Assembly (NCBI RefSeq): GCF_017811175.1 | Contig: NZ_JACWIJ010000002.1 | Coordinates: 2,852,001-2,916,000 of the forward strand | DNA: 64,000 nucleotides | Direction of reading: 5' to 3' | DNA from: Melaminivora jejuensis | GTDB taxonomy: Bacteria > Pseudomonadota > Gammaproteobacteria > Burkholderiales > Burkholderiaceae_C | Part shown: positions 7,928-30,088 of the stretch, piece after piece | Layout: every line of letters begins with the position of its first letter | Position numbering within the stretch: position 1 is the first letter of the stretch | Made by a program: the position numbers and the translations under genes | Notes under the pieces: model-generated | The model's database searches: none | Seen by the model: only the letters and a program-made list of their open reading frames with translations | Told to the model about the DNA's origin: nothing

Positions 7928-7929
7928 GT

Positions 7930-11955: not shown

Positions 11956-13302
11956 ATGAACGCAGTTTCTGAAAGCCCGTCGCACCCCATCGAAGAAGAG
12001 CATTGCGACGTGCTGGTGGTCGGTGGCGGGCCGGCGGGCTCCACGGTGTCCGCCCTGCTGGTCGAGCGTGGCTACAAGGTGGTGGTGCTGGACAAGGACC
12101 GCCACCCGCGCTTTCACATCGGCGAGTCGCTGCTGCCGGCCAACCTGCCGCTGTTCGAGCGCCTGGGCGTGGCCGAGGAGATGCGCGCCATCGGCATGCA
12201 CAAGGCGGGCGCGGAATTCATCTCGCCGCACCATGCGCACACGCAGACCTTCGTGTTCGCCGACGCCTGGGACAAGTCCATGCCGCACGCCTACCAGGTC
12301 AAGCGCGCGGAGTTCGACACGCTGCTGCTGAAGAACGCCGAGCGCCGCGGCGCTCAGGTGCACCAGGGCAGCAAGGCCACCGGCGTGAGCTTCGCCGACG
12401 ACGGCAGCGTGCAGGTCGACGCCAAACACGGCGACGGCACGCAGCGGCGCTGGCATGCGCGCTTCCTGGTCGATGCCTCGGGCCGCGACACCTTCCTGGC
12501 CAACCGCTTTCGCATCAAGCAGCGCAACCCGGACCACAACAGCTCGGCGGTGTACGCGCACTTCGCCCACGCGCGGCGGCACGAGGGCCTGGCCGAGGGC
12601 AACATTTCCATCTTCTGGTTCGAGCACGGCTGGTTCTGGTTCATCCCCATGAGCAACGACACCACCAGCGTCGGCATGGTGACCTGGCCGCACCACATGA
12701 AGACACGCGCCGGCCGCAGCCTGGAGCGCTTCCTGATGGACAACATCGCCACCTGCCCGGCGCTGCAGGAGCGGCTGGCGCACGCCGAGCGCATGACGCC
12801 CGTGGAGGCGACCGGTAACTTCTCCTATTCCGCCAGCCGCAACCACGGCGCCAACTACCTGATGCTGGGCGACGCCTACGCCTTCGTGGACCCGGTGTTT
12901 TCCTCCGGCGTCTGGCTGGCCATGAACAGCGGCGTGGTCGGCGCCGACACCGTGGACGCCTGCCTGCGCGACCCGGCGGCCGCCCCGGCCGCGCTGCGCC
13001 GCTTCGACCGCGTCATGCGCCACGGGCCGCGCCACTTTTCCTGGTTCATCTACCGCATGACCAACCCCATCATGCGCGACTTCTTCATGTACCCGAAGAA
13101 CGTCTTTCGCGTGAAGGAAGCGCTGCTGTCGGTGCTGGCGGGCGACATCTTCGGCAAGACGCCCATCTGGCGCTCGCTGCTGGTGTTCAAGGCGCTGTAC
13201 TACTCGGCCAACGTCCTGCAGCCGCGCCGCGCCTTCATGGCCTGGAGAAAGCGGCGCTGGAACATCCGCCCGGTCGATGACGCAGCGCAGTACCAGCCCT
13301 GA
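11956..13302 (+). CDS. flavin-dependent halogenase-like oxidoreductase of the pigment cluster
   Basis: A 448-residue FAD protein. The dinucleotide motif GGGPAGS is at 23-29, GESLLPA at 56-62, a lysine (K83) where PrnA-type halogenases keep their catalytic lysine, and WFWFIP at 226-231 fits the WxWxIP signature of flavin-dependent halogenases. Such genes occur in xanthomonadin and some other aryl-polyene clusters, where xanthomonadins are brominated. The wider family also includes plain oxidoreductases, so halogenation is an inference. A TATGAT -10-like element at 11917 and AGGAG before the ATG mark the start. It is the first of five overlapping genes. Confidence 0.75.
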   Translation: MNAVSESPSHPIEEEHCDVLVVGGGPAGSTVSALLVERGYKVVVLDKDRHPRFHIGESLLPANLPLFERLGVAEEMRAIGMHKAGAEFISPHHAHTQTFVFADAWDKSMPHAYQVKRAEFDTLLLKNAERRGAQVHQGSKATGVSFADDGSVQVDAKHGDGTQRRWHARFLVDASGRDTFLANRFRIKQRNPDHNSSAVYAHFAHARRHEGLAEGNISIFWFEHGWFWFIPMSNDTTSVGMVTWPHHMKTRAGRSLERFLMDNIATCPALQERLAHAERMTPVEATGNFSYSASRNHGANYLMLGDAYAFVDPVFSSGVWLAMNSGVVGADTVDACLRDPAAAPAALRRFDRVMRHGPRHFSWFIYRMTNPIMRDFFMYPKNVFRVKEALLSVLAGDIFGKTPIWRSLLVFKALYYSANVLQPRRAFMAWRKRRWNIRPVDDAAQYQP

Positions 13303-14062
13303 CCTGCAGCGCAGGGGCCTGGTGCGCGCGCTGTGGCACCTGTATGAGCGCCTGGCCATGTGCATCGGCCTGGGCACCCTGGCGCTGCTGTGCCTGGTGT
13401 GGCTGCCGTTCGCGGCCGTGCTGCACCCCATCGTGCCACGCGCGCAGGCGCAGTGGCTGGGGCGCCGGGTCATCACGCTGGCCTTCCGCTTCTACCTGGG
13501 CGTACTGTCGCTGCTGTGCGCCTGCCGGTTCGATCTGTCGGAGCTGGATGCGCTGCGCCACGAGCGCGCGCTGATCATCGCCGCCAACCACCCGTCGCTG
13601 CTGGACGCGGTGCTGCTGGTCTCGCGCCTGCCCAACGCCGTGTGCATCATGAAGGCCAGCCTGCTGGACAACATCCTGTTCGGCGCCGCCGCACGGATGG
13701 CGCGCTACGTGCGCAACGACGACGCCCTGCAGCTGGTGAGGCATAGCTGTCACAGCCTGGCCGAAGGCGCGCAGGTGGTGCTGTTTCCGGAAGGCTCGCG
13801 CACGCAGCACTTCCCGCTGGACCCGTTCGGACGGACGCTGGGCCTGCTGGCCCGGCGCGCCCAGGTGCCGGTGCAGACCGTACTGCTGGAGTTCTCCACG
13901 CCCTACCTGGGCAAGCACTGGCCCTTGTGGAGGCCGCCCGTGCTGCCGCTGCGCTGCACGGCGCGGCTGGGCGGGCGCTTCGAGCCGGCGGCCGATCACG
14001 TCGCCTTCACCCGGGCGCTGGAGCAGCATTTCCGCACCGAACTGGCCCACCCGACTCCATGA
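13277..14062 (+). CDS. PlsC-like lysophospholipid acyltransferase
   Basis: A 261-residue membrane-associated acyltransferase. Motif I is NHPSLLD (H105, D110; HX4D) and motif III is FPEGSR (170-175). N-terminal hydrophobic stretches at about 28-50 and 68-84 would anchor it. In aryl-polyene clusters such enzymes are thought to transfer the polyene acid onto a lipid or sugar-lipid carrier; ordinary phospholipid synthesis cannot be excluded. The start overlaps the halogenase-like gene by 26 bases and the stop overlaps the glycosyltransferase start by ATGA. Confidence 0.8.
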   Translation: MTQRSTSPDLQRRGLVRALWHLYERLAMCIGLGTLALLCLVWLPFAAVLHPIVPRAQAQWLGRRVITLAFRFYLGVLSLLCACRFDLSELDALRHERALIIAANHPSLLDAVLLVSRLPNAVCIMKASLLDNILFGAAARMARYVRNDDALQLVRHSCHSLAEGAQVVLFPEGSRTQHFPLDPFGRTLGLLARRAQVPVQTVLLEFSTPYLGKHWPLWRPPVLPLRCTARLGGRFEPAADHVAFTRALEQHFRTELAHPTP

Positions 14063-14841
14063 ATACGCCCCCTGCCGCCTCCAGCACGCACCTGGTGCTG
14101 ATCCCCAGCTACAACCCGGGGCGCACCGTCGTCGACACCGTCCGCGCGGCGCGGCGCCACTGGAACCCGGTGTGGGTGGTCGTGGACGGCAGCACCGACG
14201 GCAGCGACGCGTGGCTGCGCGAGATGGCCGGGCAAGACCCGGGCCTGCGCGTGATCGTGCAGGCCGTGAACCAGGGCAAGGGCGCCGCCGTGCTCGAAGG
14301 CATTCGCCAGGCGCGGGCAGCCGGCTTCACGCACGCGCTGACCATGGACTCGGACGGCCAGCACCCGGCCGACCGCATCCCGGCGTTCATGGCCACCTCG
14401 CAGGCGCAGCCCGCTGCCATGGTGCTGGGCAAGCCGGTGTTCGGCCCGGAAGCGCCGGCCCTGCGCGTCAACGGGCGCAAGGTGTCCAACGCCTGGGCCA
14501 ACCTGGAGACCCTGTGGGCGGGCATTGGCGACTCGCTCTATGGCTTTCGCGTCTATCCCATCGCGCCGCTGATGCAGGTCATGCGCGGCCAGCGCTTCAT
14601 GCGCCGCTTCGATTTCGACCCCGAGGCCGTGGTGCGGCTGTGCTGGGCAGGAGTGCCGCCGGTGAACCTGGACGCGCCCGTGCGCTACCTGGACGCCAGC
14701 GAAGGCGGCGTCTCGCACTTTCGCTATCTGCGCGACAACACCCTGCTGACCTGGATGCACACGCGCCTGTTCCTGGGCTTCGTACTGCGCCTGCCCCTGC
14801 TGGCCTGGCGCCGTCTGCGGCCACCAGAGAAAAGACCATGA
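14059..14841 (+). CDS. family 2 glycosyltransferase
   Basis: A 260-residue GT-A enzyme. The start ATG overlaps the upstream stop; longer reading in frame has no homology. It begins HLVLIPSYNPGRTVVDTV, has the nucleotide-binding DGSTDGSDAWL and the metal-binding TMDSDGQHPADRIPAF (DxD). A hydrophobic C-terminus may attach it to the membrane. In aryl-polyene loci such enzymes are associated with the sugar part of the lipid-linked pigment. The sugar donor is unknown. Confidence 0.8.
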   Translation: MNTPPAASSTHLVLIPSYNPGRTVVDTVRAARRHWNPVWVVVDGSTDGSDAWLREMAGQDPGLRVIVQAVNQGKGAAVLEGIRQARAAGFTHALTMDSDGQHPADRIPAFMATSQAQPAAMVLGKPVFGPEAPALRVNGRKVSNAWANLETLWAGIGDSLYGFRVYPIAPLMQVMRGQRFMRRFDFDPEAVVRLCWAGVPPVNLDAPVRYLDASEGGVSHFRYLRDNTLLTWMHTRLFLGFVLRLPLLAWRRLRPPEKRP

Positions 14842-15608
14842 CCGAACCGAGACCCCGCGCCCAGAGCGCCATGAAAAGCGGCGACGCGCACCTGAAGGCC
14901 TATTTTTCGGACGAGGCCGAGCGGCGCCGGGTGACCCAGGTCATGTTCAACGAGGCCGCCACGGGCTACGACAGAGCCGAGGCGCTGACGGCCCTGGGCA
15001 GCGGTAGCTGGTACCGGCGCGAGGTGCTGCGCCGCGAAGGCCTCAAGCCCGGCATGCATGTGCTCGACGTGGCAGCGGGCACCGGCCTCGTCACCGCCGA
15101 GGCGCTGGCGCTGGCCGGTCCGCAGGGCCGCGTCGTGGCGCTAGACCCGTCGCCCGGCATGCTGGCCGAGCTGCGCCGCAAGCTCAGCTGCGAGACCGTC
15201 GAGGCCTATGCCGAGGCCATCCCGCTGCCCGACGCGCAGGTGGACTTTTTGTCGATGGGCTACGCGCTGCGGCATGTGGGCGACATGGACAAGGCCTTCG
15301 CCGAATACCTGCGCGTGCTCAAGCCCGGCGGCAAGGCCTGCATCATGGAAATCAGTCGGCCCGCGAGCTGGCTGGGCCGCATACTGCTGAAACTGCACAT
15401 CGGCGCCATGGTGCCGCTGATGGCGCGCCTCAGCGGCCGCCACACCGACGTCAAGCGGCTGTGGGCCTATTACGGTGACACCATCGAGGCGGCGGTAGAC
15501 CCGGACACCGTGCTGGACGCGCTGCGCCGCGCCGGCTTCCAGGACGTGCGCTGCGGCGTGACGCTGGGCATCTTCCGCGAATACACCGGCACGCGGGCGC
15601 AGCCGTGA
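14838..15608 (+). CDS. UbiE-like class I SAM methyltransferase
   Basis: A 256-residue methyltransferase with VLDVAAGTGLVTAEA (SAM motif I), VVALDPSPGML (acidic residue after beta 2) and VLKPGGKACIMEIS (motif III). Similarity to UbiE/COQ5 enzymes is clear, but the location between a glycosyltransferase and an antiporter inside the pigment cluster makes polyene tailoring or a quinone-like substrate more likely than ubiquinone synthesis. It overlaps both neighbours by 4 bases. Confidence 0.75.
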   Translation: MTEPRPRAQSAMKSGDAHLKAYFSDEAERRRVTQVMFNEAATGYDRAEALTALGSGSWYRREVLRREGLKPGMHVLDVAAGTGLVTAEALALAGPQGRVVALDPSPGMLAELRRKLSCETVEAYAEAIPLPDAQVDFLSMGYALRHVGDMDKAFAEYLRVLKPGGKACIMEISRPASWLGRILLKLHIGAMVPLMARLSGRHTDVKRLWAYYGDTIEAAVDPDTVLDALRRAGFQDVRCGVTLGIFREYTGTRAQP

Positions 15609-16798
15609 GCACCGCCGAGCGCTTCCTGATCGCGCTGCTCATCATCTTCACCGTCCCCTGGCTGATCTGGCGCCTGGGCCGCACCGACCGCTGGGCGCCG
15701 CTGGTGGTGGTGCAGATCCTGCTGGGCATCGTGCTCGGCCCCGGGGTGCTGGGCCACTGGTACCCGGACTATTACAACGCCGTGTTCACCCCCGAGGTGA
15801 GCCACGCCCTCAACGGCCTGGCCTGGTGGGCCGTGACGCTGTTCGTGATGATCGCCGGCATCGAGCTGGACTTGAAAGCCGCCTGGCAGCACCGGCGCGA
15901 GAGCGGCATCACCGCCGGCCTGGCGCTGGGCACGCCCATGCTGCTGGGCTGCGGCGCGGCCCTGGCCATGCTGCACTGGCCAGGCTGGCTCACGCCCGAG
16001 GCCCGGCCCTGGCAGTTCGTGCTCGGCATGGGCATGGCCTGCGCGGTGACGGCGCTGCCGATCCTGATCCTGCTGCTGGAAAAGCTGGACATCCTGCGCG
16101 ACCCCCTGGGCCAGCGCATCCTGCGCTACGCCAGCCTGGACGACATCGCCATCTGGGGCGTGCTGGCGCTGATCGTCATGGACTGGGAGCGTGTAGGCCG
16201 GCAGGCGCTGTTCCTGCTGGCCTTTGGCCTGGCGGCCTGGTTGTGCCGCCGGCTCATGCGCCGCGTGCCCGAGCAGGACCGCTGGTACCTGGCGTTGGTG
16301 TGGCTGGCGCTGTGCGCGCTCGGTGCCGACTGGGCCGGCCTGCACTTCATGGTCGGCGCCTTCCTGGCCGGCGCCGTACTCGACGCCGAATGGTTCAACC
16401 AGCAACAGATGGACTTGCTGCGCCACCACGTGCTGCTGACGCTGATGCCGGTGTTCTTCCTCTCGACCGGCCTGCGCACCGGCTGGAGCATGGGCGGCCT
16501 GGACGTGGTGCTGGCCGCGGCCTGGCTGCTGGCAGCCGCCGTCGCCGGCAAGCTGCTCGGCGTTCACCTGGCGGGCCGGGTGCTGGGCTGGCGCCCGGGC
16601 GAAGCCAGCATGATCGGCTGGCTGCTGCAGACCAAGGCACTCATCATGATCATCTTCGCCAACGTGCTGCTGGACCGGCAGATCATCACCAGCGCCACCT
16701 TCACCGCGCTGCTGCTGATGGCGGTGGCCAGCACCATGGTGACCATACCAATCGTGGAGCCGAAGCTGGCGCGCTGGCGTCAGCATCGAAAATCATAG
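15605..16798 (+). CDS. cation:proton antiporter, CPA2-like
   Basis: A 397-residue protein of about 12 membrane helices. LLGIVLGPGVLG near residue 40 and LFVMIAGIELDLKAAW at about 78-93 are typical of Kef/NhaP-like sodium or potassium:proton exchangers. It has no C-terminal RCK/TrkA domain. The GTG start overlaps the methyltransferase stop. The last codons and the TAG come from a copy of the dispersed repeat, so the C-terminus may have been trimmed by it. Why the pigment block carries an antiporter is not evident. Confidence 0.8.
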   Translation: MSTAERFLIALLIIFTVPWLIWRLGRTDRWAPLVVVQILLGIVLGPGVLGHWYPDYYNAVFTPEVSHALNGLAWWAVTLFVMIAGIELDLKAAWQHRRESGITAGLALGTPMLLGCGAALAMLHWPGWLTPEARPWQFVLGMGMACAVTALPILILLLEKLDILRDPLGQRILRYASLDDIAIWGVLALIVMDWERVGRQALFLLAFGLAAWLCRRLMRRVPEQDRWYLALVWLALCALGADWAGLHFMVGAFLAGAVLDAEWFNQQQMDLLRHHVLLTLMPVFFLSTGLRTGWSMGGLDVVLAAAWLLAAAVAGKLLGVHLAGRVLGWRPGEASMIGWLLQTKALIMIIFANVLLDRQIITSATFTALLLMAVASTMVTIPIVEPKLARWRQHRKS

Positions 16799-16845: not shown

Positions 16846-16849
16846 CCCC

Positions 16850-17590
16850 CTACGCCATGCCGCCGTTGATGGAAATCACCTGCCCCGTGATGTAGGCCGC
16901 GCGCTCGGACACGAGGAAGTCCACCAGATCCGCCACCTCGGCGGGCCGGCCGGCGCGCTGCATGGGCACCATCTGGCGCAGCGCGTCCGCGCCGAACTGG
17001 CCCTCGGCCATGCCGCTGTCGATGATGCCGGGCGCCACGACGTTCACCGTCACGCCGCGGCTGGCCAGCTCCAGCGCCAGCGAGCGGCTGGCGGCATGCA
17101 GCCCGCCCTTGGCGGCGGCATAGTTCACTTGGCCCCGGTTGCCCGCCACGGCGGTGACGGACGAGACATTGACGATGCGTCCCCAGCGCGTGCGCAGCAT
17201 GGGCAGCGTCAGCGGCTGCGTGACGTTGAAGAAGCCGTTCAGCGACACGTCCAGCACGCGATCCCATTGCGCGCCCGACATACCGGCGAACACCGCATCG
17301 TCGTGGATGCCGGCGTTGTTCACCAGCACCTGGATGGGGCCCTCTTCCAGCAGCCTTTCAAGAGCGCTTGCGCACGCCGGCCGGTCGGTGACGTCGAAGG
17401 CCACGGCCTCGGCGCTGGCGCCGCCGGCCTGCAGCTGCGCGGCCAGCGCCTGCGCCCGCGCCAGGCCCTGGTTGGCGTGCACGATGACGTGCAGGCCCGA
17501 GGCGGCCAGGCGCTCGCAGATGGCGGCGCCCAGGCCGCCACTGCCGCCGGTGACGAGCGCGCGGCGCGCAGGGGATGCAGGGGTGTTCAT
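16850..17590 (-). CDS. 3-ketoacyl-ACP reductase (FabG-like, ApeQ type)
   Basis: A 246-residue classical SDR: cofactor motif TGGSGGLG (14-21), NNAG (91-94), catalytic Ser144, Tyr157 and Lys161 (YxxxK) and a C-terminal ISINGGMA. In aryl-polyene synthesis it reduces each new 3-ketoacyl-ACP before dehydration. It is the last gene of the long minus-strand block and overlaps the dehydratase upstream by 4 bases. It could also serve fatty acid synthesis, but position argues for the pigment pathway. Confidence 0.85.
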   Translation of the reverse strand: MNTPASPARRALVTGGSGGLGAAICERLAASGLHVIVHANQGLARAQALAAQLQAGGASAEAVAFDVTDRPACASALERLLEEGPIQVLVNNAGIHDDAVFAGMSGAQWDRVLDVSLNGFFNVTQPLTLPMLRTRWGRIVNVSSVTAVAGNRGQVNYAAAKGGLHAASRSLALELASRGVTVNVVAPGIIDSGMAEGQFGADALRQMVPMQRAGRPAEVADLVDFLVSERAAYITGQVISINGGMA

Positions 17591-18051
17591 GGCGTGGCGG
17601 AAAAGGAAGCGGCGTCCAGCACGACCGATGCGCGCCCTTCGGCGAGGCAGCGGCCGGCGGTGCCAACGGTGAATGCGTAGAGGATGACGGCGTCGTCGCC
17701 CGAAAGCCGCGTGGCCTCGACCTGCAGGTCGTCCGCCATGTCGTCGATGCGCTCGGCATGCAGGCGCACGCCGCGCACGCTGGCCAAGTAGCCCGCGCCC
17801 AGCGGCCGGCCCGCACCCGCCAGCAGCGCGCCATGCACGGCCATGGCCTGGGCCGCATATTCGACGGCGTTGGCCGCGCCCAGGCGGCCCTGCTCGCGCA
17901 GCGGGTTGGCGGGGCTGCGGTGGCTGGTAGCGCTGCAGCGGATGTGCTGCGCGTCCCAGGCGAGCACGCGGTCGAGCAGGCACATTCCGCCCTGGTGCGG
18001 AATATGGGCCGCGATCCAGGCGTGGTCGGGAAGCAGGTCGGGTCTCAGCAT
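17587..18051 (-). CDS. 3-hydroxyacyl-ACP dehydratase, hotdog (ApeP type)
   Basis: A 154-residue hotdog protein with IPHQGGMCLLDRVLAWD (18-34), in which His19 is the likely catalytic histidine and GGMCLLD opens the central helix. This matches the COG4706-type dehydratases of aryl-polyene clusters, which form the trans double bonds after ketoreduction. The residue usually paired with the histidine would lie around AANAVEYAAQAMA. It overlaps the chain-length-factor gene by 7 bases and the reductase by 4. Confidence 0.8.
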   Translation of the reverse strand: MLRPDLLPDHAWIAAHIPHQGGMCLLDRVLAWDAQHIRCSATSHRSPANPLREQGRLGAANAVEYAAQAMAVHGALLAGAGRPLGAGYLASVRGVRLHAERIDDMADDLQVEATRLSGDDAVILYAFTVGTAGRCLAEGRASVVLDAASFSATP

Positions 18052-18848
18052 GGCTGCAAGCGCAGGCCCAGGCTGTGGCCGGGCAGGTAGTCGAGCGCCA
18101 CGTCGGCGGTGCTGCGGCGGGCCAGCGCATCCAGCGCGGGCAGCGCGCGCAGCGAGGGGAATTGCGCGCGCAGCGCTTCCAGCGCCCCCTCCTGCATGCG
18201 CGTGGGCGCGCCCTGCCCGCCGGGCGTCACGCTGATCTGCGCCAGCGATGCGCCGGAGCGCCGGGGCGCCAGCAGCCAGGCCATGCCCGCCGCGTCGGGC
18301 AGGGGGCGCTTGGCGTGCAGCGGCTCGGGGTACTCGCTGTCATAGCAGACCAGCAGCACGGAGCGGCCGTCGAGCGCCACCTGCGCCAGCGCATCCATCA
18401 GGCCGGCACCCAGGCTGCCGTCGTAGGCGCAGATCACCTGGCAGGGCGCCATGCTGCGCGTGGCGATGCCCCAGTAGCCGGCGGCGGCGTTGTGCACCGA
18501 GTTGTGGAAACGCGTGGGCGAGATCTGCCGGTCGTCGCCCGCCAGCTGTTCGCACAGCGCATGGCAGTTGTGACCGTCGGCGCCGGAGGCGGCGAACACG
18601 GTGGCCAGCTGCGCGAGGTCGGCGCCCGCCTGCGCGGCGGCCTGCTGGCCCAGCGCCAGCGCCAGGCGGATCACGCGGCTGGCGCGGCGGCGCTCGGCGG
18701 GCGGCAGCAGGGCGGCAGCGGGCAGCACCGAAGGCTCGCTGCGCCAGGGCTGCGCCCCGCAGAGCACGGCGGCGGCACTGGGCCAGTCGGGCAGGCCGGG
18801 CGCGATCAGGCCGATGCCGTCGATCCAGGCCGTCAATACTCGGTTCAT
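18045..18848 (-). CDS. beta-ketoacyl synthase chain-length-factor homologue (ApeC type)
   Basis: A 267-residue protein matching the short ketosynthase N-terminal-like family found in aryl-polyene loci. It lacks the C-terminal His-His half of a ketosynthase. The region where a ketosynthase would have its cysteine reads APCQVICAYDGSLGAGLMDAL, and the usual TACSS motif is absent. In the studied systems the partner forms a heterodimer with a KS and influences chain length. The start overlaps the KS stop by ATGA, as expected for stoichiometric partners. Confidence 0.8.
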   Translation of the reverse strand: MNRVLTAWIDGIGLIAPGLPDWPSAAAVLCGAQPWRSEPSVLPAAALLPPAERRRASRVIRLALALGQQAAAQAGADLAQLATVFAASGADGHNCHALCEQLAGDDRQISPTRFHNSVHNAAAGYWGIATRSMAPCQVICAYDGSLGAGLMDALAQVALDGRSVLLVCYDSEYPEPLHAKRPLPDAAGMAWLLAPRRSGASLAQISVTPGGQGAPTRMQEGALEALRAQFPSLRALPALDALARRSTADVALDYLPGHSLGLRLQPC

Positions 18849-22233: not shown

Positions 22234-22883
22234 ACGGCGGCCTCCCGGCGCGGCACGATGAAGGCTGCCGACAACATCAGCGCGATCACCACGCCAGGCG
22301 CCACCGTCACGCCCATGGCCTTGAGCACCGGCACGTGCGACACCGCCAGGGCACCGAAGCCGATCACCGTGGTGACCACGGCCACGCTCATGGACGACCA
22401 GACATCGACCGCCAGCCCGCCGTCGGCGTCGATCTGGTCGAAGAACAGGGTGTAGTTGGAGCCCACGGCCACGATCAGCAGCAGCCCAATCAAGTGCAGC
22501 AGGTTCAGCTCGGTGCCCAGGGCATGCAGCGTGGCCATCACGATGGTGACCGTCATGGCCAGCGTCAGCATCATGCGCCACAGGCGCGTCCACGAGCGCA
22601 TGGCGAAGGCCAGCATGACGGTGATCGCCAGCACGCCGCCCAGCGCCAGATAGACCGCCTGCTGCAGGTAGCCTGCGTACAGCGTCTCGAACTCGGCCTT
22701 CAGGTCGATGAACACCGCGCCGGTGCCTTCGAGTGCCTGGCGCACTTGTTCGACCGGGATGTCGGTCGCGCCCGTGGCCGCCGGGCGCAGCGGCAGCACG
22801 ACGTGCCACCGGCCATCGTTGGACGACATGAGTGAATCGACCGCCAGTGCCATGGCCGTGCCGTCGAGGTCGGCGCGCGTCAT
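22230..22883 (-). CDS. MMPL/RND-type exporter, C-terminal fragment
   Basis: A 217-residue open frame holding the last membrane domain of an MMPL exporter: helices at about 75-92, 100-118, 122-144 (LLHLIGLLLIVAVGSNYTLFF), 163-183 and 189-208. The GSNYTLFFDQ stretch corresponds to the proton-relay helix. Homologues in aryl-polyene clusters are single proteins of nearly 800 residues. Here the start ATG overlaps the stop of the N-terminal fragment (TGATG). One extra G in the G5 run at 22890-22894 would join both parts in frame, giving ...AARGGPLMTRADL. Reinitiation could still make both halves. Confidence 0.75.
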   Translation of the reverse strand: MTRADLDGTAMALAVDSLMSSNDGRWHVVLPLRPAATGATDIPVEQVRQALEGTGAVFIDLKAEFETLYAGYLQQAVYLALGGVLAITVMLAFAMRSWTRLWRMMLTLAMTVTIVMATLHALGTELNLLHLIGLLLIVAVGSNYTLFFDQIDADGGLAVDVWSSMSVAVVTTVIGFGALAVSHVPVLKAMGVTVAPGVVIALMLSAAFIVPRREAAV

Positions 22884-24571
22884 CAGCGGCCCCCTCGCGC
22901 GGCGTCCACCGCGTCCAGAAAAGGCGTCAGCCGCCCCGCCGACAGCGGTGCGTCCTGCAGTGCCTGCGCCAGGTCGCGCTGCAGCGCCTGCCTCGGCGGC
23001 AGCGCCGCCAGACGCTCGCGCTGCACCTGCGCGCTGGGCAGGAAGCGGGCCGGGTTGTCGTGGCCGCCGATCAGGCCCTGCCCCGCCAGGCCGTCCAGGC
23101 GACGGCCAGCGGCTTCGGCCCCGACCAGCGCCGCCTCCTGGTCAGGTGCCGTGACCAGCACCAGGTAGCGGGCATCGGGGGCGCCGATGTCGGCGCGCAG
23201 CCGCGCATCGGCATCGGCATCGGCTTCGCTCACCGTGGACAGGGCCGACAGGTTGGTGCTCCACAGGCTGTCGTGGTGCTGCACCAGGTACGCCAGCGCC
23301 ACCGCCGTCACGATCCACGCCGGCCAGCGCAGGCGCCACGCCTGGCCCAGCCAGCCCAGCGTCGTGTTGCCCAGCACGCCGGGGGACGGGATCTCGTGCC
23401 GGTCGCCCGCCACCACCGGCAGGATGAAGCGCGTCACCAGCGCCGCCACGGCAATGCCCGAGAGCGCGTACACGCCCAGTTGCGCCAGGCCCGGGAAGCC
23501 CGCCAGCAGCATCACGCCGAAGCCGGCGATGGACGTGATCACACCCAGGCGAATCGTGGGCCAGAAGGTCTCGCGCCAGGATTGCAGGCCCACGCGCCCG
23601 GACTGCACGAAGAAATAGATCGCATAGTCCACCGCCTCGCCCACCAGCGCCGCGCCGAAGCCCACCGTGATGCCATGCACCATGCCGAATATCAGGTCGA
23701 CGCAGACGATGGCCGCCACCGTGCCCGCCACCACGGGCAGCAGGCCCAGCGCCATCATGCGCGGCGAGCGGTAGATCCACAGCAGCAGCAGGCCGATGCC
23801 GATCGAGCTGACCAGCGAAATGCGCTCGATCTCCGAGCGGATGGCCTCGCGCGCCTGGACCGCGAACTGCCCCGGCCCCGACATCGTCAGCGAGAGCGGG
23901 GCCAGCGACGGTTCTGCCTGCAGGGCCGCGAACTGCGCGCGCACTGCCTCTATGGCCTTCTCCTGACCATCGGTATCGCTGCCCGGCGCCAGGGTCTGGG
24001 CCAGCAGCAGGGCGCGCTGCCCGTCGCGCGACGCCCAGACGCCGCCGCGGGTGTCGGGCTCGGTGCCCGGGTGCAATTGCGAGAGGATTTCGATCATCTC
24101 GCCGGTCGGATCCTGCAGCAGGTAGGGCTTGAACAGGAAGCCCACCGGCGAAGTCGCCACGTCGATGGTGCGACCCACCGCCTCGCGCAGGCTCTCGGGC
24201 GAGAAGCGCTCGGGCGTGAGCGCCGGGCTCAGGTGGTAGCGAAAGCCCAGCAGGAAGTCGCGCTCGGCCTCCAGGCCGCCGGGTTCGCCGTTCTGCACCG
24301 AGACGAACAGGCCGCTGTCGGTCATGGCCTGGCGCAGCGCGACGGAGGCGCGCGCGCGCTCTGCCTCGGCGCCGCCCCCGATGCCGATCATCAGCAGGCG
24401 CGAGACGGCGCCCTCTTTCATCTGATCGACCAGCACCCGCTGCTCCGGGCTCGGGTCGGATGGCAGAAAAAAGGACATATCCGCCGTGAAGCGGGCCTGG
24501 AAGATCCAGGCCACGCCCGCAGCCACGGCGACCAGCCACAGCAGGAAAGCCTTCAGGGGCGTGAGCTTCAT
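22883..24571 (-). CDS. MMPL/RND-type exporter, N-terminal fragment
   Basis: A 562-residue open frame: first helix at about 6-23, a large periplasmic domain (25-260), five helices around 265-400 including VGFGAALVGEAVDYAIYFF, and the second periplasmic domain. The C-terminal membrane half is on the next frame. These proteins are proposed to move aryl-polyene lipids across or out of the inner membrane. The stop codon lies 6 bases beyond a G5 run, consistent with a one-base loss. The gene overlaps the LolA-like gene upstream by ATGA. Confidence 0.8.
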   Translation of the reverse strand: MKLTPLKAFLLWLVAVAAGVAWIFQARFTADMSFFLPSDPSPEQRVLVDQMKEGAVSRLLMIGIGGGAEAERARASVALRQAMTDSGLFVSVQNGEPGGLEAERDFLLGFRYHLSPALTPERFSPESLREAVGRTIDVATSPVGFLFKPYLLQDPTGEMIEILSQLHPGTEPDTRGGVWASRDGQRALLLAQTLAPGSDTDGQEKAIEAVRAQFAALQAEPSLAPLSLTMSGPGQFAVQAREAIRSEIERISLVSSIGIGLLLLWIYRSPRMMALGLLPVVAGTVAAIVCVDLIFGMVHGITVGFGAALVGEAVDYAIYFFVQSGRVGLQSWRETFWPTIRLGVITSIAGFGVMLLAGFPGLAQLGVYALSGIAVAALVTRFILPVVAGDRHEIPSPGVLGNTTLGWLGQAWRLRWPAWIVTAVALAYLVQHHDSLWSTNLSALSTVSEADADADARLRADIGAPDARYLVLVTAPDQEAALVGAEAAGRRLDGLAGQGLIGGHDNPARFLPSAQVQRERLAALPPRQALQRDLAQALQDAPLSAGRLTPFLDAVDAARGGR

Positions 24572-25134
24572 TCGCCGGAGAGGGGTTCGATGGCCAGCTC
24601 GACGCGGTCACCGTCGGCTTGGCTGTACTCGATGCGGCGCACCTCGCGGCCGCGCCCGCCCACCGTGATGCGCGTGACCAGCGCCTGCACTTCGGCGTTC
24701 GCGGGCAGCAGGATCAACTTCCAGTCCTTCTCGCTGCCCTGCAGTTCCAGCCGGTAGTACTTTTCGAGCTGCGCGCGGTTGCCGGCCAGTGTGCTGCGCA
24801 CGCTCTCAATGAAGGCCATGGCCTCGGGGCGGCCGCCGACGTGCCAGGTCATGCTGCGCCCGCCCTGCTCCACGGTGAGCGTGTTCTTGTCCAGCACCAG
24901 GCTTTCTCGCCGGGGCTTGAGGGTTTCCTTTTCCAGCCGGTCGGGCGGGGCGAAGCGCAGCTCGCCGCTGGAGACCACGGGCGCGTCCAGCAGGGTAGCG
25001 TGGCGCGTCTCGACGAAGCGGGCGCGACCGCCCTTGAATTGGGCCAGCTCACCCATGAGCTGGCCCACGTCGAAAGCGTGCGCGGCAAGCGATGCGCAGG
25101 CCAGCATCACGGTGAACAGGGTGCGCAGGATCAT
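24568..25134 (-). CDS. LolA-like outer membrane lipoprotein carrier
   Basis: A 188-residue periplasmic protein with a signal peptide (ILRTLFTVMLACASLAAHA, cleavage near 20) and the LolA-like half-barrel pattern RFVETRHATLLDAPVVSSGELRF and LVLDKNTLTVEQGGRSM. In aryl-polyene clusters this homologue is thought to ferry the pigment lipid through the periplasm, taking over from the MMPL exporter encoded next to it. The start ATG at 25134 overlaps the acyltransferase stop. Confidence 0.82.
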   Translation of the reverse strand: MILRTLFTVMLACASLAAHAFDVGQLMGELAQFKGGRARFVETRHATLLDAPVVSSGELRFAPPDRLEKETLKPRRESLVLDKNTLTVEQGGRSMTWHVGGRPEAMAFIESVRSTLAGNRAQLEKYYRLELQGSEKDWKLILLPANAEVQALVTRITVGGRGREVRRIEYSQADGDRVELAIEPLSGE

Positions 25135-26033
25135 GGGGCTTGCCAGAAGTCGTAGAAGTTGAACCAGTTCAGGGGTGCATCGCGCAGCGTGCGCTCCAGC
25201 ACCGCCACGTAGGCCTGCTGCGCCTCGGCCATCGCCGCCGGGCGCAGCGCGCGCGGCGTGGCATGGAAATCGGCGACGGGCTCGAAACGGATCTCGTAGC
25301 AGTTGCCGCCCAGGTAGAGCCCGGCCATGAAGAACACCGGGCGCTGCAGCATGGCGGCGAGCCGCCAGGGGCCGAGGGGAAAGGCAGCCTCCTCGCCCAG
25401 GAACGGCAGGCGGGCGCAAGCATCATCGGCGGCGAGCGTGCGGTCGGCAAGCAGTCCGACGAGGCAGCCGTCGTCGAGCCGATCGCGCACTGCGAGCATA
25501 GATTCCATCCGGCCCAGCGCGATCACGTCCTGGATCGCATCGGGCGCGATGGCCGCGAGCGTGGCGTTGAGCTGGCGCGCATTGTCCTCGTACATGGCCA
25601 TGGCCACGCGCAGGCCGCCGCGCTTCTGGCCCACGGTGCGCAACACCTCGAAGCTGCCCAGGTGCGCGCCCATCAGCAGCGCGCCGCGCCCGCCGCGCAA
25701 CGCGGCGTGCAGAGCATCCGCACCATGCACGTCGACCTGCAGCCCGGCGCCTCGGTTGCGCAGCAGGAACACCCGGTCGTGGATGGTGGTGGCAAACCAC
25801 AACACATGCTTGTAGCGCTCGCGCCAGCGCGGCGGGCGGCCCAGCATGCGTGCCAGGTAGGCGCGGCTGGCGCGCTGCGCTTTGGGCGCGAAGAGCACGA
25901 AGTACAGGGCGATGCCGTGCAGCACGACCCGGCCCAGGCTGCGTCCCGCCGTCAGCGAGATCCAGACCATCAGGCGCAGCAGCCACATGTGGCTGCGCTC
26001 GCCCTCTCGCGCCCAGGCGGCGGCCTGGCTCAC
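25131..26033 (-). CDS. LpxL/HtrB-like acyltransferase
   Basis: A 300-residue inner-membrane acyltransferase of the lipid A late-acyltransferase family. An N-terminal helix (about 15-40) precedes LLMGAHLGSFEVLRTVG, an HX4E/D catalytic motif, and DGCLVGLLADRTL. In aryl-polyene loci this family is the candidate for esterifying the polyene acid to its lipid or glycan acceptor. I chose the GTG at 26033, which overlaps the dehydratase stop (GTGA), because no homology lies upstream. Confidence 0.8.
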   Translation of the reverse strand: MSQAAAWAREGERSHMWLLRLMVWISLTAGRSLGRVVLHGIALYFVLFAPKAQRASRAYLARMLGRPPRWRERYKHVLWFATTIHDRVFLLRNRGAGLQVDVHGADALHAALRGGRGALLMGAHLGSFEVLRTVGQKRGGLRVAMAMYEDNARQLNATLAAIAPDAIQDVIALGRMESMLAVRDRLDDGCLVGLLADRTLAADDACARLPFLGEEAAFPLGPWRLAAMLQRPVFFMAGLYLGGNCYEIRFEPVADFHATPRALRPAAMAEAQQAYVAVLERTLRDAPLNWFNFYDFWQAP

Positions 26034-26323
26034 GCCGCATCCTCCTGCTGCAGCACGCCGCTGGCCACCAGGGCCTCCCCGGCGTGGATGGCAAAGCGCT
26101 GCGCGCCGGGCGAGGCGGGGGTGAACGACCAGCGCAGCGTCTCGCCCGGGCCCACCGGGCGCAGGAACTTGGCCTGCGCGATGCACCAGCGCCGGCCCAC
26201 GGGCAAGGCGCCGGCGCGCAGCAGGCTGTGGTCGAGCAGCACCACGCCCGGCACGATGGGCCGGCCGGGGAAATGCCCGGCGAACGCCGGATGATCTGCC
26301 GGGACGGCCCAGTCAGCGGGCAT
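26030..26323 (-). CDS. FabZ-like hotdog dehydratase (ApeI type)
   Basis: A 97-residue short hotdog protein with HPAFAGHFPGRPIVPGVVLLD (11-31); GHFPGxPIVPG is the FabZ/FabA active-site signature with His17 catalytic. It is shorter than FabZ (about 150), normal for the ApeI class. Of two candidate starts, the ATG at 26323 has a GGTGGA site 6 bases upstream; the other (26341) would overlap the AMP ligase further. It likely shares dehydration with the ApeP-type enzyme encoded at 17587-18051. Confidence 0.75.
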   Translation of the reverse strand: MPADWAVPADHPAFAGHFPGRPIVPGVVLLDHSLLRAGALPVGRRWCIAQAKFLRPVGPGETLRWSFTPASPGAQRFAIHAGEALVASGVLQQEDAA

Positions 26324-27656
26324 TGCGTATCCACCGCTCATGCAATGCCTCCAGCGTGCTGCGCGCGATCTTGCCCGTGGCGTTGCGCGCGATCGCCTCG
26401 ACCAGCACCAGCGGACGCGGCATGAAGATGGGATCGATCCGCGTGCGCAGCGCGGCCAGCAGCGCGGCGCGCTCGCCGGCCGGCGCGACGGCGAAGGCCA
26501 CCAGCCGGCCAGCACGGGCCGCTTCCTCCTCGTCCGGCAGGAAGAAGGCCCCATCCTGCACGCCGGGGATCGTGCGCAACTGGTGGTTGAGATAGGCGAG
26601 CGAGGTGCGTTTGCCCGCCAGGTTCACCATGTCGGCATGGCGACCCTGCAGCGTGAAGCGTCCGTCTTCGTGCAAGGCAAGGATGTCGGCCAGCGCCACG
26701 CGCCCTTCCACATGGCCCCCGCTCGCCCAGGTGGTATCGCCCTGCTGCTCCAGGCGCACGCCGGGCATGAGCGTCCATTCGGCCCCAGCCGCAGTGCGTC
26801 GCGTGGCGAGCTGCGAGGATTCGGTCGAACCGTAGATCTCGTGCACCGGCGCGCCGGTGGCGGCCTCGGCCTGTGCGGCCAGGGGCACATCCAGCGGCGC
26901 GGTGGCCGAGAGCCAGCGCGCCACCGGCGGCAGCGCCACGCCCGAGGCCAGCACGCTCGCCAGGTGGTAAGGCGTGGTGACAACCATCGCCGGGTGGGGC
27001 ACCGCGGCGAGCGCGTCGGCCAGGTCCTGCGGATAGAAGGGTTTGCCACTCCAGAAACTGCAGCCGCCATGCAGCGCGAGCAGGAAGGTCGATTCAAAAC
27101 CGTAGCTATGCTGCGCCGGCACCGTGCCGACGAGCGTGTGCGGCGCGTCCAGCAGCCCCAGGGCCTGGGCCTCGGCGCGGCCGTTGGCGACCAGCTTGCC
27201 CCAGGTCTTCGCATGGGGCTGGGGCATGCCGGTGGAGCCCGATGTGAACAGGATGGCGACGAGCGTGTCCGGCGCGATGTGCGGCACGTCCGCACCGGGC
27301 TGGCCAGCCAGCTCCTGCAGTGCGGGCAGCGGATGCGCGGGCAATTCGGCGGGCAGCGGCGTGGATGCGTCGGTCACGGCCAGCGCACCGGCGTAGGTAC
27401 AGGCCAGCTGGCGCAGCGTCGCCTCGGACTGCGACGAGGGCTGCAGGCTCACGCGCCCCGACAGCGCGCAGGCGGCGAGCAGCACCGCGTAGTGGTAGCG
27501 GTCCTCGCACAGGTTGACGATATAGCGCCCCGGGGGGAGCGCAGCGGCCAGCGCAAGGGCGTCGGCGCAGTAGCGCGCAACGCTGACCGGCCCTTGCGGG
27601 CGCCAGGCAAGGATGTCGCCCGGCCCACGGCCGCCGACCAGAGGCAGGCCACTCAT
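26313..27656 (-). CDS. AMP-dependent acyl/aryl ligase (ApeH type)
   Basis: A 447-residue ANL-superfamily adenylating enzyme. The phosphate-binding loop is LFTSGSTGMPQPHAKTW, the adenine motif is EIYGSTESSQLATRR, and NATGKIARSTL carries the C-terminal catalytic lysine. It is shorter than typical acyl-CoA synthetases, as in aryl-polyene clusters, where it loads 4-hydroxybenzoate or a related starter onto ACP. No ammonia-lyase or chorismate-lyase gene is in the window, so the starter must come from elsewhere. It overlaps both neighbours by 4-11 bases. Confidence 0.85.
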   Translation of the reverse strand: MSGLPLVGGRGPGDILAWRPQGPVSVARYCADALALAAALPPGRYIVNLCEDRYHYAVLLAACALSGRVSLQPSSQSEATLRQLACTYAGALAVTDASTPLPAELPAHPLPALQELAGQPGADVPHIAPDTLVAILFTSGSTGMPQPHAKTWGKLVANGRAEAQALGLLDAPHTLVGTVPAQHSYGFESTFLLALHGGCSFWSGKPFYPQDLADALAAVPHPAMVVTTPYHLASVLASGVALPPVARWLSATAPLDVPLAAQAEAATGAPVHEIYGSTESSQLATRRTAAGAEWTLMPGVRLEQQGDTTWASGGHVEGRVALADILALHEDGRFTLQGRHADMVNLAGKRTSLAYLNHQLRTIPGVQDGAFFLPDEEEAARAGRLVAFAVAPAGERAALLAALRTRIDPIFMPRPLVLVEAIARNATGKIARSTLEALHERWIRNAR

Positions 27657-28309
27657 GCAACGCGATCCGAGGCCGGGGAGCGGCCGCGCTGGGCCTGCCA
27701 GGCGCGCGCCACGTCCTTGATGGAGGGCCGGTCCTCGGGCGGCAGCATCCGTTGGCGCACCAGCATCTCCAGCAGGAAGAACACGCCCAGCAGCGGGCCG
27801 GTGAGCAGGTTGGCATGCACCGACCAGACTTCCGCCGGCGCCCAGGCGAACAGCAGCGTGGACACCAGCGCATTGCCCGCGAGGAACAGCGCCCAGGCCA
27901 GGGTGACGCTGCGCGTGTAGCGGCGCGTGCGCGCGCTCAAGGGGCCAGCAGCGATCATGCGCGCCATGGCGCTGACCACTGGTTCGCGCCCCGCGCCAAG
28001 CGAGCGCGCGAACCATGCCGCCAGCGCCAGATGCGCGCCCAGGTGCTGCAGGTAATAAAGCCATGTGACGTGGCCGCGCAGCCAAGGCCAGGCCACCGCC
28101 AGCACAAGCGCGCTGACGCCTGCCACCAGACTGGCGGCAAGCCCCGGCCATGGCATCTGGAACGCCAGCAGCAATGCAGAGAACGCCAGCGGCGTGACCG
28201 CGACGGCGATGTGCAAGTCGATGGGGCCGACACCTGTGCTGGCCAGGTGGGCCGAAACAGCCCACAGCAGCAGCAGCGCCACGGCCAGGGCGTTGCGCCA
28301 GCAGGTCAT
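27653..28309 (-). CDS. COG4648-type inner membrane protein of aryl-polyene clusters
   Basis: A 218-residue protein with about six hydrophobic helices (first at 6-24) and the conserved tail LLEMLVRQRMLPPEDRPSIKDVARAW, where the LPPEDRPS stretch resembles the conserved C-terminus of this membrane family. Members occur almost only beside ACP and AMP-ligase genes of aryl-polyene loci; their function is unknown. It overlaps the ACP and AMP-ligase genes by 4 bases on each side. Confidence 0.72.
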   Translation of the reverse strand: MTCWRNALAVALLLLWAVSAHLASTGVGPIDLHIAVAVTPLAFSALLLAFQMPWPGLAASLVAGVSALVLAVAWPWLRGHVTWLYYLQHLGAHLALAAWFARSLGAGREPVVSAMARMIAAGPLSARTRRYTRSVTLAWALFLAGNALVSTLLFAWAPAEVWSVHANLLTGPLLGVFFLLEMLVRQRMLPPEDRPSIKDVARAWQAQRGRSPASDRVA

Positions 28310-28578
28310 TGCGTCCGGTGGGCCGCGATGTGCTCGGTCAGCGCTTGTAGCGAGGCGAATATCTGCTGGTTGTTCTCGTTGTCCGACTTGAGCTGAAAGC
28401 CGTAGCGCTTGGAGACCACGAGCGCGATCTCCAGCATGTCGATGGAGTCCAGCCCCAGGCCGTCGCCGTACAGCGGCGCCTGCGGGTCGATGCCCTGCGG
28501 CTGCACGTCCAGGTTCAGCGCCTCGACGATGAGGGCAGCGACCTCGGAGCGCAGGGTGTCGATGGAAGTGGTGGTCAT
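28306..28578 (-). CDS. acyl carrier protein 2
   Basis: A 90-residue ACP with the attachment motif GLGLDSIDMLE; Ser45 would carry 4'-phosphopantetheine. The ATG at 28578 was chosen over a GTG at 28590 that overlaps the KS stop, because the ACP fold begins with IDTLRSEVAALI. Two ACPs are usual for aryl-polyene systems: one may take the starter, the other the elongating chain. Confidence 0.88.
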   Translation of the reverse strand: MTTTSIDTLRSEVAALIVEALNLDVQPQGIDPQAPLYGDGLGLDSIDMLEIALVVSKRYGFQLKSDNENNQQIFASLQALTEHIAAHRTQ

Positions 28579-28586
28579 GCAAGAGC

Positions 28587-29846
28587 TCACTGAATGGACG
28601 CCTGGCGGAACGCGAGCACCGCGTTGCTGCCGCCAAAAGCAAAGGAGTTGGACAGGGCGGCGCGCACGCGCACGTCATGCCGCCCCCGCAGGATGTGGTC
28701 GACGCCCTCGCACGCAGGGTCGAGGCGGCCTTCGAGATGGGCCGTAGGCGGCAGCGCCTGTTCACGCACGCTCAGCACCGTGGCCAGTGCCTCCATCGCA
28801 CCGGCGGCGCCCATCAGATGGCCGTGCATGGACTTGGTGGCGCTCACGGGCAGGTGCGCGGCGTGGCCACCGAACACCTGCTGCAGCGCGTGGATCTCAA
28901 TGGGATCGCCCTCGGGCGTGGCCGTGCCGTGGGCATTGACGTAGTCCACGTCTTCGGGCGCAAGGCCGCCTTCGGCCAGCGCCGCGCGAATGGCACGCGC
29001 CTGCCCTCCGGCGTCGGGGCGCACCAGGTGGGTGTGGTCGCAGCTCACGCCATAGCCGACCATCTCGGCATGGATGGCCGCGCCGCGCGTTCTGGCGTGC
29101 TCCCAGTCTTCCAAGACCAGCGCCACGCCACCCTCGCCCAGCACTAGGCCGGCACGGTCGGCGGCGAAGGGGCGGCAGGCCTGCGCGGCGGCATCGCCCA
29201 CGTCGGGCGACATCAGGCGCATCGCCAGCCAGGCCTGGGCCACGCCGTAGGTCTGCGTGGCGTCCGATCCGCCCGTCAGCATCACGCTGGCGTGGCCCGC
29301 GCGAATGCGCCGGTAGGCCTCGCCGATCGCAATGGCCGACGAAGCGCAGGCGGCGGCATGGCTGGAGCTGACACCTCCCAGCCCCAGCTGGATGGAAATG
29401 TGCGCATTCACGGCGTTGTTCATTCCCATCACGACCGACAGCGGGGACAGACGTTCGCGCCCCTTGAGCCAGATGTCCTTGTAGCCGCGCTCGAAGGCCT
29501 GGATGCCGCCCAGTGCGGTGCCCCAGACGCAGCCCCAGTCCTCGCGCGTCTCGCTCTCGCAAGGCTGGCGCTCAAGCCCCGCGTCGGCCCAGGCGTCGAA
29601 GGCGGCGGCCAGTCCCAGGTGGGCGAAGCGCTCCATCATGGCGGCCAGCGGGCCGCCCAGTGCGGCCCTCGCATCGAAGTCGCGGCAGGTCACGAATGGC
29701 ATCGACAGCGGGCGCGGCACGTCGTCGGTCTGCAGATGGTAGACCGCGGACTCACCGTCCATGAGGCGGCTGAAAAAGTCCGGCAGGTTACCACCGTACG
29801 GGCTGACCAGTCCCAGGCCCGTGACGGCGACGCGGCGTGCCGTCAT
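28587..29846 (-). CDS. beta-ketoacyl-ACP synthase, first KS of the cluster
   Basis: A 419-residue FabF-like condensing enzyme. Cys167 (AAACASSA), His306 (NAHGTATPEGD), Lys338 and His343 (KSMHGHLMGAAG) form a complete active site. The acyl-entry region differs from FabF, with a charged segment CESETREDWGCVWGTALGG. It is encoded between the two ACPs. Together with the KS at 18845-20065 it gives two complete KSs plus a chain-length-factor homologue, the usual aryl-polyene set. The ATG at 29846 overlaps the ACP1 stop. Confidence 0.9.
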   Translation of the reverse strand: MTARRVAVTGLGLVSPYGGNLPDFFSRLMDGESAVYHLQTDDVPRPLSMPFVTCRDFDARAALGGPLAAMMERFAHLGLAAAFDAWADAGLERQPCESETREDWGCVWGTALGGIQAFERGYKDIWLKGRERLSPLSVVMGMNNAVNAHISIQLGLGGVSSSHAAACASSAIAIGEAYRRIRAGHASVMLTGGSDATQTYGVAQAWLAMRLMSPDVGDAAAQACRPFAADRAGLVLGEGGVALVLEDWEHARTRGAAIHAEMVGYGVSCDHTHLVRPDAGGQARAIRAALAEGGLAPEDVDYVNAHGTATPEGDPIEIHALQQVFGGHAAHLPVSATKSMHGHLMGAAGAMEALATVLSVREQALPPTAHLEGRLDPACEGVDHILRGRHDVRVRAALSNSFAFGGSNAVLAFRQASIQ

Positions 29847-30088
29847 GCCTGCGCGGTTTTTTGCGCGAGCAGCCGGTCGATGATGAGCTGCATGTCGGCC
29901 ACCGTGACGGGCACCGGCTGGTCGTTGTCGATGGAAATATCCAGGCGGTCTTCCGCTTCGAACATCAGCTCGGCCACCATCAGCGAATCCACGCCCAGAT
30001 CGGCGAGCACGGAATCCCTCTGGACTTTCTCGGGCTCGACACCCAGGCGTTCCTGGAGAAATTTGCGAATCAATTCGATCGAATCCAT
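29843..30088 (-). CDS. acyl carrier protein 1
   Basis: An 81-residue ACP with LGVDSLMVAELMFE; Ser35 is the phosphopantetheine site. It is the first gene of the minus-strand block that runs without real gaps to 16850. The promoter should be in 30089-30228: a TAAAAT -10-like hexamer reads on the minus strand at 30157-30152, with no convincing -35, so an activator may be needed. No regulator gene is present in the cluster. Confidence 0.9.
   Translation of the reverse strand: MDSIELIRKFLQERLGVEPEKVQRDSVLADLGVDSLMVAELMFEAEDRLDISIDNDQPVPVTVADMQLIIDRLLAQKTAQA

Follow-up and report, generated by a model that had tools for sequence, protein, structure and literature searches.

A probable xanthomonadin/arcuflavin-type aryl-polyene gene cluster in Melaminivora jejuensis that may depend on supplied hydroxybenzoate

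A stretch of 64,000 nucleotides from Melaminivora jejuensis (GCF_017811175.1, NZ_JACWIJ010000002.1; genome of 3.75 Mb in two contigs), in the following called the window and with a GC content of ~70%, contains at positions 11956-30088 two tightly packed gene blocks, which an initial annotation had read as an aryl-polyene (APE)/xanthomonadin-like type II polyketide synthase (PKS) cluster. This raises the question which pathway these genes encode, whether it differs from described ones and whether it could still operate. The proposed class is supported by sequence, by matches to solved structures and by synteny. The locus is very probably a xanthomonadin/arcuflavin-type (arc-type) aryl-polyene cluster, a described type, in a betaproteobacterium near Hydrogenophaga, possibly dependent on supplied hydroxybenzoate. 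The product is probably a halogenated yellow membrane pigment of the xanthomonadin kind.

Gene types were assigned by Pfam and NCBIfam scans of the window proteins, in which each of the types named in the initial annotation was found (Table 1). Several open reading frames (ORFs) were first scanned in an over-long form, and the starts used afterwards were chosen by the authors. Active sites were inspected in alignments of each window protein with tblastn matches covering >70% of it, and were read with the catalytic motifs known for each family.

Polyene-making core and proposed pathway

The components of arc/xanthomonadin-type clusters are represented by a ketosynthase (KS) with a half-length chain-length factor (CLF), an AMP ligase, an acyl carrier protein (ACP), a ketoreductase and a first dehydratase, together with a LolA-like carrier, an MMPL exporter in two ORFs, a GT2 glycosyltransferase, PlsC/LpxL acyltransferases and a flavin halogenase; an XanB2-type chorismatase was not found. 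Both ketosynthases keep the Cys-His-His triad, as had been proposed, with C167/H306/H343 in KS1 (11 aligned sequences) and C172/H301/H335 in KS2 (91 aligned sequences). The best solved relatives of KS2 are PDB 7f28_B and 6qsp_A, and the CLF matches the partner chains 6qsp_B and 7f28_A; these entries, which carry generic names in the output, are taken here to be aryl-polyene KS-CLF pairs. The annotated chain-length-factor homologue is present, but as a half-length, N-terminal type. Its Gln 156, which lies outside the 95% conserved positions, may correspond to Q166 of Lysobacter ORF16, mutation of which abolished pigment (PMC3691225).

KS1 is 38% identical to the genome's own FabF-like protein and 31% to E. 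coli ApeR, and is a candidate for an ApeR-type initiating role. ACP1 has a conserved D34-S35-L36 motif (7 aligned sequences), but neither of the two Ape ACPs of E. coli was matched by it at E<=1. ACP2 is 49% and 40% identical to these two proteins, with its serine S45 conserved in 53 aligned sequences. The AMP ligase reaches 106 bits with TIGR02372, under the cut-off of 334.7, and is 27% identical to ApeH; the FabG-like reductase is 46% identical to E. coli ApeQ. Of the two annotated hotdog dehydratases, the ApeI-like one could be confirmed (ApeI-like profile, E 0.003; 39% identity with E. coli ApeI across 57 aa). The second gave only the weak ApeP-like Pfam match listed in Table 1 and no NCBIfam match, and E. 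coli ApeP was not matched by it in BLAST at E<=1; its position and residues are kept in 91 aligned sequences. For the COG4648-like membrane protein no Pfam or NCBIfam match was obtained.

Read from the identity, order, catalytic residues and conservation of these genes, the pathway would start with the AMP ligase loading hydroxybenzoic acid, obtained by another route or from outside, onto ACP2. KS2 and the half-length CLF would extend it with malonyl units, and the FabG-like enzyme and the dehydratases would reduce and dehydrate each unit added, so that a conjugated polyene results, with KS1 and ACP1 possibly starting or feeding the chain. The methyltransferases and the flavin halogenase are predicted to decorate the product, and the alpha/beta hydrolase may stand in for ApeK by releasing the acyl chain or transferring it. 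The PlsC- and LpxL-type acyltransferases, GT2, the CE4 deacetylase and the PAP2 phosphatase would build a glycolipid anchor, and LolA and the MMPL protein would carry the product to the outer membrane.

Related clusters and recurrence of the additional genes

The initial annotation considered a halogenase-like flavoprotein, two methyltransferases, a CE4 deacetylase, a GT2 and an antiporter unusual in combination and, as it found no regulator, starter-forming enzyme or ApeK-type thioesterase, held that the product could be a new variant. An unusual combination does not agree with the published arc (arcuflavin) genes of Azoarcus BH72 (PMC3949708). There, locus one holds a halogenase, acyltransferase, glycosyltransferase, Na+/H+ antiporter, reductase, dehydratase, half KS and KS, and locus two a methyltransferase, PS-deacetylase, hypothetical protein, exporter, LolA, acyltransferase, dehydratase, AMP ligase, hypothetical protein and ACP; plasmid insertions in arcK or arcT resulted in colourless cells. 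The gene order of the window is nearly that of arcV-arcM and arcK-arcA, a likeness by annotation and not by sequence. Azoarcus differs in that its genes are spread over two unlinked loci and include arcB (XanB2), arcC and arcF, as well as a two-component system and genes for dialkylresorcinol. The window combines its genes in a single locus, with ACP1-KS1, the UbiE-like methyltransferase and PAP2 in addition, and is without arcB and arcC. The xanthomonadin cluster of Xanthomonas and the yellow locus of Lysobacter enzymogenes, compared by description, have the KS with half-length CLF, two dehydratases (the second in the window a candidate by position and conservation), a ketoreductase and an ACP in common with the window, but contain an XanB2-type starter gene (PMC3691225), none of which was found in the M. 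jejuensis genome. According to the accessible text of the same paper, a flavin halogenase occurs in the Xanthomonas and Azoarcus clusters but not in Lysobacter, and is thus not universal. A closely similar plasmid cluster of Azospirillum ramasamyi (NZ_CP029832) has its genes in the same order, CE4 and a convergent GT2-PlsC-FAD (flavin adenine dinucleotide) block among them, but gave no match to ACP1, KS1, the alpha/beta hydrolase or the antiporter within a 37-kb stretch, and its exporter is a single gene.

To these, a scan of named genomes can be added, from which the best 80 of 585 confirmed loci were taken, 56 of the 80 with full flanks. Gene presence was scored with BLAST bit thresholds set by the authors; KS1 and ACP1 often lie outside the 10-kb flanks, which makes their low counts uninformative. 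Among the 56 full-flank loci, KS2, the half-length CLF and the ApeP-like dehydratase were found in all 56, the reductase in 55, CE4 in 54, the N-terminal exporter part in 53, LolA in 52, LpxL and the ApeI-like dehydratase in 50 each, the AMP ligase in 48, GT2 in 47, PlsC in 46, the hydrolase in 38, the halogenase in 35, the antiporter and the first methyltransferase (MT1) in 31 each, the UbiE-like methyltransferase in 18 and PAP2 in 9. Reductase and GT2 stand on opposite strands in 47/47 of the loci that have both. All six additional genes occur together in 5/56. Since this arrangement recurs across many genomes, it is not due to chance. The halogenase, CE4, GT2, antiporter and alpha/beta hydrolase are widespread in betaproteobacterial xanthomonadin-type clusters, CE4 nearly always being present, and the argument for novelty fails, as the additional genes are known from published and named clusters.

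The best matches of the half-length CLF, among the best 80 of 585, are two metagenome-assembled genomes labelled Proteobacteria bacterium (79 and 81%), followed by Hydrogenophaga sp. STE_132 (73%). A region listed as arylpolyene was reported by antiSMASH in Hydrogenophaga sp. SL48, some regions of which are similar to xanthomonadin I (PMC12993520). DNA of Caballeronia NK8 matched 18/22 window queries, and a match on a plasmid of Variovorax VAI-C has no further cluster gene annotated beside it. In five compared loci the similarity is mosaic: ACP2-LolA and KS2-reductase are nearest to locus L043, the exporter to L052, the UbiE-like methyltransferase and the antiporter to L045, and the halogenase, PlsC and GT2 to the congeners. 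Such a patchwork of nearest relatives suggests gene exchange between clusters.

Starter supply and the divided exporter

The absence of a starter-forming enzyme had been noted for the window, correctly, and holds genome-wide for the XanB2-type and UbiC families. PF21168 (FkbO_Hyg5-like_N) had no match in the genome, the XanB2-like protein of a congener as query found nothing in it at E<=1, and UbiC (PF04345) is absent from it and from four congeners. In a set of 60 genomes that includes the own genome, UbiC is present in 22. Strong half-CLF matches (E<1e-30) were obtained in the own genome and 10 others, and weak ones in 5 more. The XanB2-type chorismatase family is present in 8 of these 10 others, compared to 0/49 of the remaining genomes (Fisher's test, p 2e-8, ignoring kinship), and in 3 of the 8 (G031, G058, G059) its gene shares a contig with the cluster, at a distance of no more than ~20 kb.

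Two congeners (G001, G003) have the cluster and one chorismatase each, 86% identical to each other, and two (G002, G004) have neither, so that M. jejuensis is a natural case of a cluster without chorismatase, and the starter requirement is testable by feeding. The G003 chorismatase scores 215 bits with TIGR04444, under the cut-off of 325, and the solved structures related to it are 5ag3, 5a3k and FkbO 4bps; whether a chorismatase is of XanB2 or another type is not distinguishable from sequence (PMC3949708). In G001 and G003 the gene sits between genes taken, by their N-terminal sequences, as lpd and glyQ. The genes so taken are ~0.9 kb apart in G004. In the own genome the corresponding gap is ~8 kb and holds HsdR, an ORF without Pfam match, a Schlafen AlbA_2 protein and HsdM, a type I restriction-modification block in the place of the congeners' chorismatase. 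In the same stretch (L148, 3169-4691), a putative branched-chain dehydrogenase E2 gene has a repeat-like linker insertion and continues in another frame.

Because neither an XanB2-type chorismatase nor a UbiC match is present, hydroxybenzoate would have to come from outside or from another source. Since UbiC is absent from the own genome and the four congeners, the genus must obtain 4-hydroxybenzoate by some other route. The ligase could use this compound, because ArcT accepted, besides 3-hydroxybenzoic acid (3-HBA), several 4-modified benzoic acids (PMC3949708). When Lysobacter lost its XanB2 homologue, pigment fell by ~90% and was restored by 3-HBA (PMC3691225), and in Ralstonia solanacearum no xanB2 is described beside the pig-like cluster in the accessible part of PMC9542644. 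An XanB2-type chorismatase is thus typical of arc/xanthomonadin-type clusters but not defining, and membership is kept here for the polyene-making part only.

The exporter forms two ORFs in differing frames, 24571-22883 and 22883-22230, which meet at 22883 near a short G run; the C-terminal part matches E. coli ApeM from residue 551. In 78 related loci with both halves, 75 have one open frame, one is broken (L112) and two could not be scored. A working two-piece exporter is unlikely, because the junction presumably falls in the second periplasmic loop, as placed by the general topology of RND proteins. The genome holds five further MMPL matches, in four open frames. Since the exporter is split and a starter supply is missing, any pigment that this strain makes could be scarce, unfed or in the wrong place.

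Several points weigh against assignment to a functional arc-type pathway. With the chorismatase missing and the exporter split, the pathway could be silent or failing, the second dehydratase is poorly supported by its sequence, and the exporter break may be either real and recent or a sequencing or assembly error. In addition, two cluster-bearing genomes (G045, G057) are also without XanB2, indicating that the chorismatase is not indispensable everywhere. A rival reading is a decaying, non-functional relic, in which the starter gene is missing, with the restriction-modification block at the locus where congeners carry it, and the exporter is broken by a change of frame that 75/78 relatives do not have. 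In line with such decay, the window lineage has more unique changes than either congener in LpxL, LolA, MMPL, MT1 and KS1. However, all remaining genes are open and their catalytic residues intact, and the ratios of nonsynonymous to synonymous differences (pN/pS) of cluster genes compared to the congeners are ~0.2-0.8. For the C-terminal exporter part they are barely above those of the N-terminal part (0.73 vs 0.64 and 0.54 vs 0.52), and both parts look to be still under purifying selection, which disfavours long decay. As the exporter is also closer to locus L052 than to the congeners, allele exchange would explain its unique changes at least as well as decay, and the substitution pattern was set aside as a weak argument for it. 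The relic is overall considered unlikely, and the arc-type cluster is retained.

Improbable, in our judgment, is a further reading, in which the pathway is a starter orphan, so that a halogenated aryl-polyene glycolipid would form only if the surroundings or neighbours provide hydroxybenzoate. If true, the pigment would report on external aromatic acid.

Other pathway classes, gene layout and accessory genes

A classical E. coli/Xenorhabdus-type APE cluster, with a UbiC starter and release by ApeK, was considered by comparing the 17 proteins of the E. coli CFT073 cluster (NC_004431; functions from the accessible part of PMC8253772, Table 1) with 22 window proteins. Credible matches were obtained for 13/17 (ApeC, D, G, H, I, J, L, M, O, Q, R and both ACPs), the two ACPs matching through ACP2 only, and ApeB gave a weak match to the UbiE-like protein (22%, E 6e-4). 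With tblastn at E 1e-3, the window yielded no match for E. coli ApeB, ApeL, ApeP or the second ACP; of these, ApeL and that ACP matched by blastp. ApeJ corresponds to two unfused window genes, GT2 (40% to residues 9-241) and LpxL (31% to residues 247-552), and for the halogenase, CE4 and the antiporter the E. coli cluster gave no match. The ApeK thioesterase and the ApeN lipoprotein had no match among window proteins (blastp) or in window DNA (tblastn, E 1e-3). Together with the absence of UbiC noted above, this gene content makes the E. coli subtype very unlikely. The earlier statement that an ApeK-type thioesterase is missing is thereby borne out for the window, yet the alpha/beta hydrolase had been overlooked.

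A hybrid product joining an aryl polyene to a dialkylresorcinol, like the arcuflavin of Azoarcus, would be in keeping with the polyene half, which agrees with the arc genes in kind and order, but is highly improbable: a clear DarB-like beta-ketoacyl-ACP synthase III was not evident, since PF08541 is over its cut-off once in the genome, near the top ketosynthase match as expected for FabH and so taken, with two weak matches below it; DarA was not searched. Equally improbable is a lipid pathway that yields no pigment and serves either lipid A modification or a specialised fatty acid. In its favour, LpxL, PlsC, GT2, CE4 and PAP2 are enzyme types of lipid and glycolipid formation; against it, KS2 and the half-length CLF match pairs of aryl-polyene pathways (PMC3691225) and the layout agrees with pigment loci proven by mutants (PMC3949708). 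An actinorhodin-type aromatic type II PKS was rejected because the CLF is half-length and no cyclase domain is among the window Pfam matches, and a carotenoid as yellow pigment because both SQS_PSY matches in the genome score as HpnC and HpnD, with no separate phytoene synthase found among them.

The genes of the arc-type cluster form two convergent operons (minus strand from 30088 to 16850, plus strand 11956-16798). They had been described as fully overlapping blocks with nearly all genes sharing 4 bases. Within the blocks all 20/20 neighbouring pairs indeed overlap, exactly 4 bases being shared in 14/20 with the chosen starts, but the blocks themselves do not, as 51 bp separate their stop codons. 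The gene types listed earlier were right, and the alpha/beta hydrolase (a gene of its own, upstream of the CE4 domain), the COG4648-like protein, the linked PAP2 phosphatase and the exporter split have to be added.

Table 1. Positions of the cluster genes and associated features (window coordinates unless another stretch is given; longer ORF, match obtained with the over-long form).
Feature	Position	Strand	Profile or sequence match
ACP1, 81 aa	29843..30088	-	Pfam PP-binding 38.5 bits
KS1, FabF-like ketosynthase, 419 aa	28587..29846	-	TIGR03150 398.6 bits, under cut-off 493.75
ACP2, pathway carrier protein	28306..28590	-	NF006617 142 bits > 70
COG4648-like membrane protein, ApeG/arcU position	27653..28309	-	26% to E. 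coli ApeG, 135 aa, E 8e-7
AMP-dependent aryl-acid:ACP ligase, ApeH/ArcT-like	26313..27656	-	Pfam AMP-binding (longer ORF)
Hotdog dehydratase, ApeI-like	26030..26341	-	FabA 25.9 bits, cut-off 23
LpxL-type acyltransferase, C-terminal half of E. coli ApeJ	25131..26033	-	Lip_A_acyltrans (longer ORF)
LolA-like carrier	24568..25134	-	LolA_3 86.5 bits
MMPL/RND exporter, N-terminal part, 562 aa	22883..24571	-	MMPL 36.2 bits
MMPL/RND exporter, C-terminal part, 217 aa, own ORF	22230..22883	-	HpnN C-terminal match
Alpha/beta hydrolase, 213 aa, arcO position	21592..22233	-	
CE4 polysaccharide/sugar deacetylase (arcN)	20789..21592	-	Polysacc_deac_1 96.6 bits (longer ORF)
S-adenosylmethionine (SAM) methyltransferase MT1, arcM position	20046..20792	-	Methyltransf_23
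KS2, elongating ketosynthase (ApeO/ArcK)	18845..20065	-	NF006618 533 bits > 407 (start 20095)
Half-length CLF (ApeC/arcJ/Lysobacter ORF16 type)	18045..18848	-	Ketoacyl-synt_2 93.8 bits
Second dehydratase, ApeP-like (weak)	17587..18051	-	ApeP-like Pfam E 0.067
FabG-like ketoreductase (ApeQ)	16850..17590	-	adh_short (longer ORF)
CPA2-type cation:proton antiporter (arcG)	15605..16798	+	Na_H_Exchanger 113.5 bits
UbiE-like methyltransferase	14838..15608	+	Ubie_methyltran (longer ORF)
GT2 glycosyltransferase, N-terminal half of E. coli ApeJ; arcE	14059..14841	+	Glycos_transf_2 (longer ORF)
PlsC-type acyltransferase (ApeD; arcD)	13277..14062	+	Acyltransferase 52.3 bits
Flavin-dependent halogenase-like protein (arcA)	11956..13302	+	Trp_halogenase 113 bits
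PAP2-family phosphatase, probable cluster gene	30106..30951	+	PAP2 27.4 bits, cut-off 27.2
Type I restriction-modification block, place of congeners' chorismatase	contig 2 3460500-3477000 (L148), 6172-14142		

For the halogenase-like protein, the PDB halogenases 8zop and 3e1t were matched, and GGGPAG, K83 and most of GWFWFIP are conserved in 45 aligned sequences. Flavin-dependent halogenases are characterized by an FAD motif, a WxWxIP motif and a catalytic lysine, and by its sequence the protein has candidates for all three (GGGPAG, GWFWFIP and K83). In CE4, residues D82, H132 and H136 are conserved (81 aligned sequences), as are S85/D165/H190 in the alpha/beta hydrolase (48 aligned sequences), whose fold also supports its identity. 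A sequence search of solved structures gave no match at E<=0.1 for the hydrolase and none at E<=0.001 for GT2. Literature on aryl-polyene lipids and glucosamine, on Hydrogenophaga pigment and on NaxD yielded nothing usable. As CE4 and the hydrolase recur in relatives and no counterpart was found in the E. coli cluster, their steps merit biochemical study.

The PlsC-type acyltransferase is 33% identical to ApeD. The PAP2 phosphatase, a possible lipid-anchor gene, is divergent from ACP1, stands beside ACP1 in both cluster-bearing congeners and was found in 15/80 named loci (best 80 of 585). The UbiE-like methyltransferase, which lies between GT2 and the antiporter, gave no match in the cluster of either of these congeners; matches to it were found in Hydrogenophaga, Azonexus and Dechloromonas loci. 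Outside the cluster, positions 36286-38055 of the window encode a GGDEF diguanylate cyclase with an N-terminal SBP_bac_3 domain.

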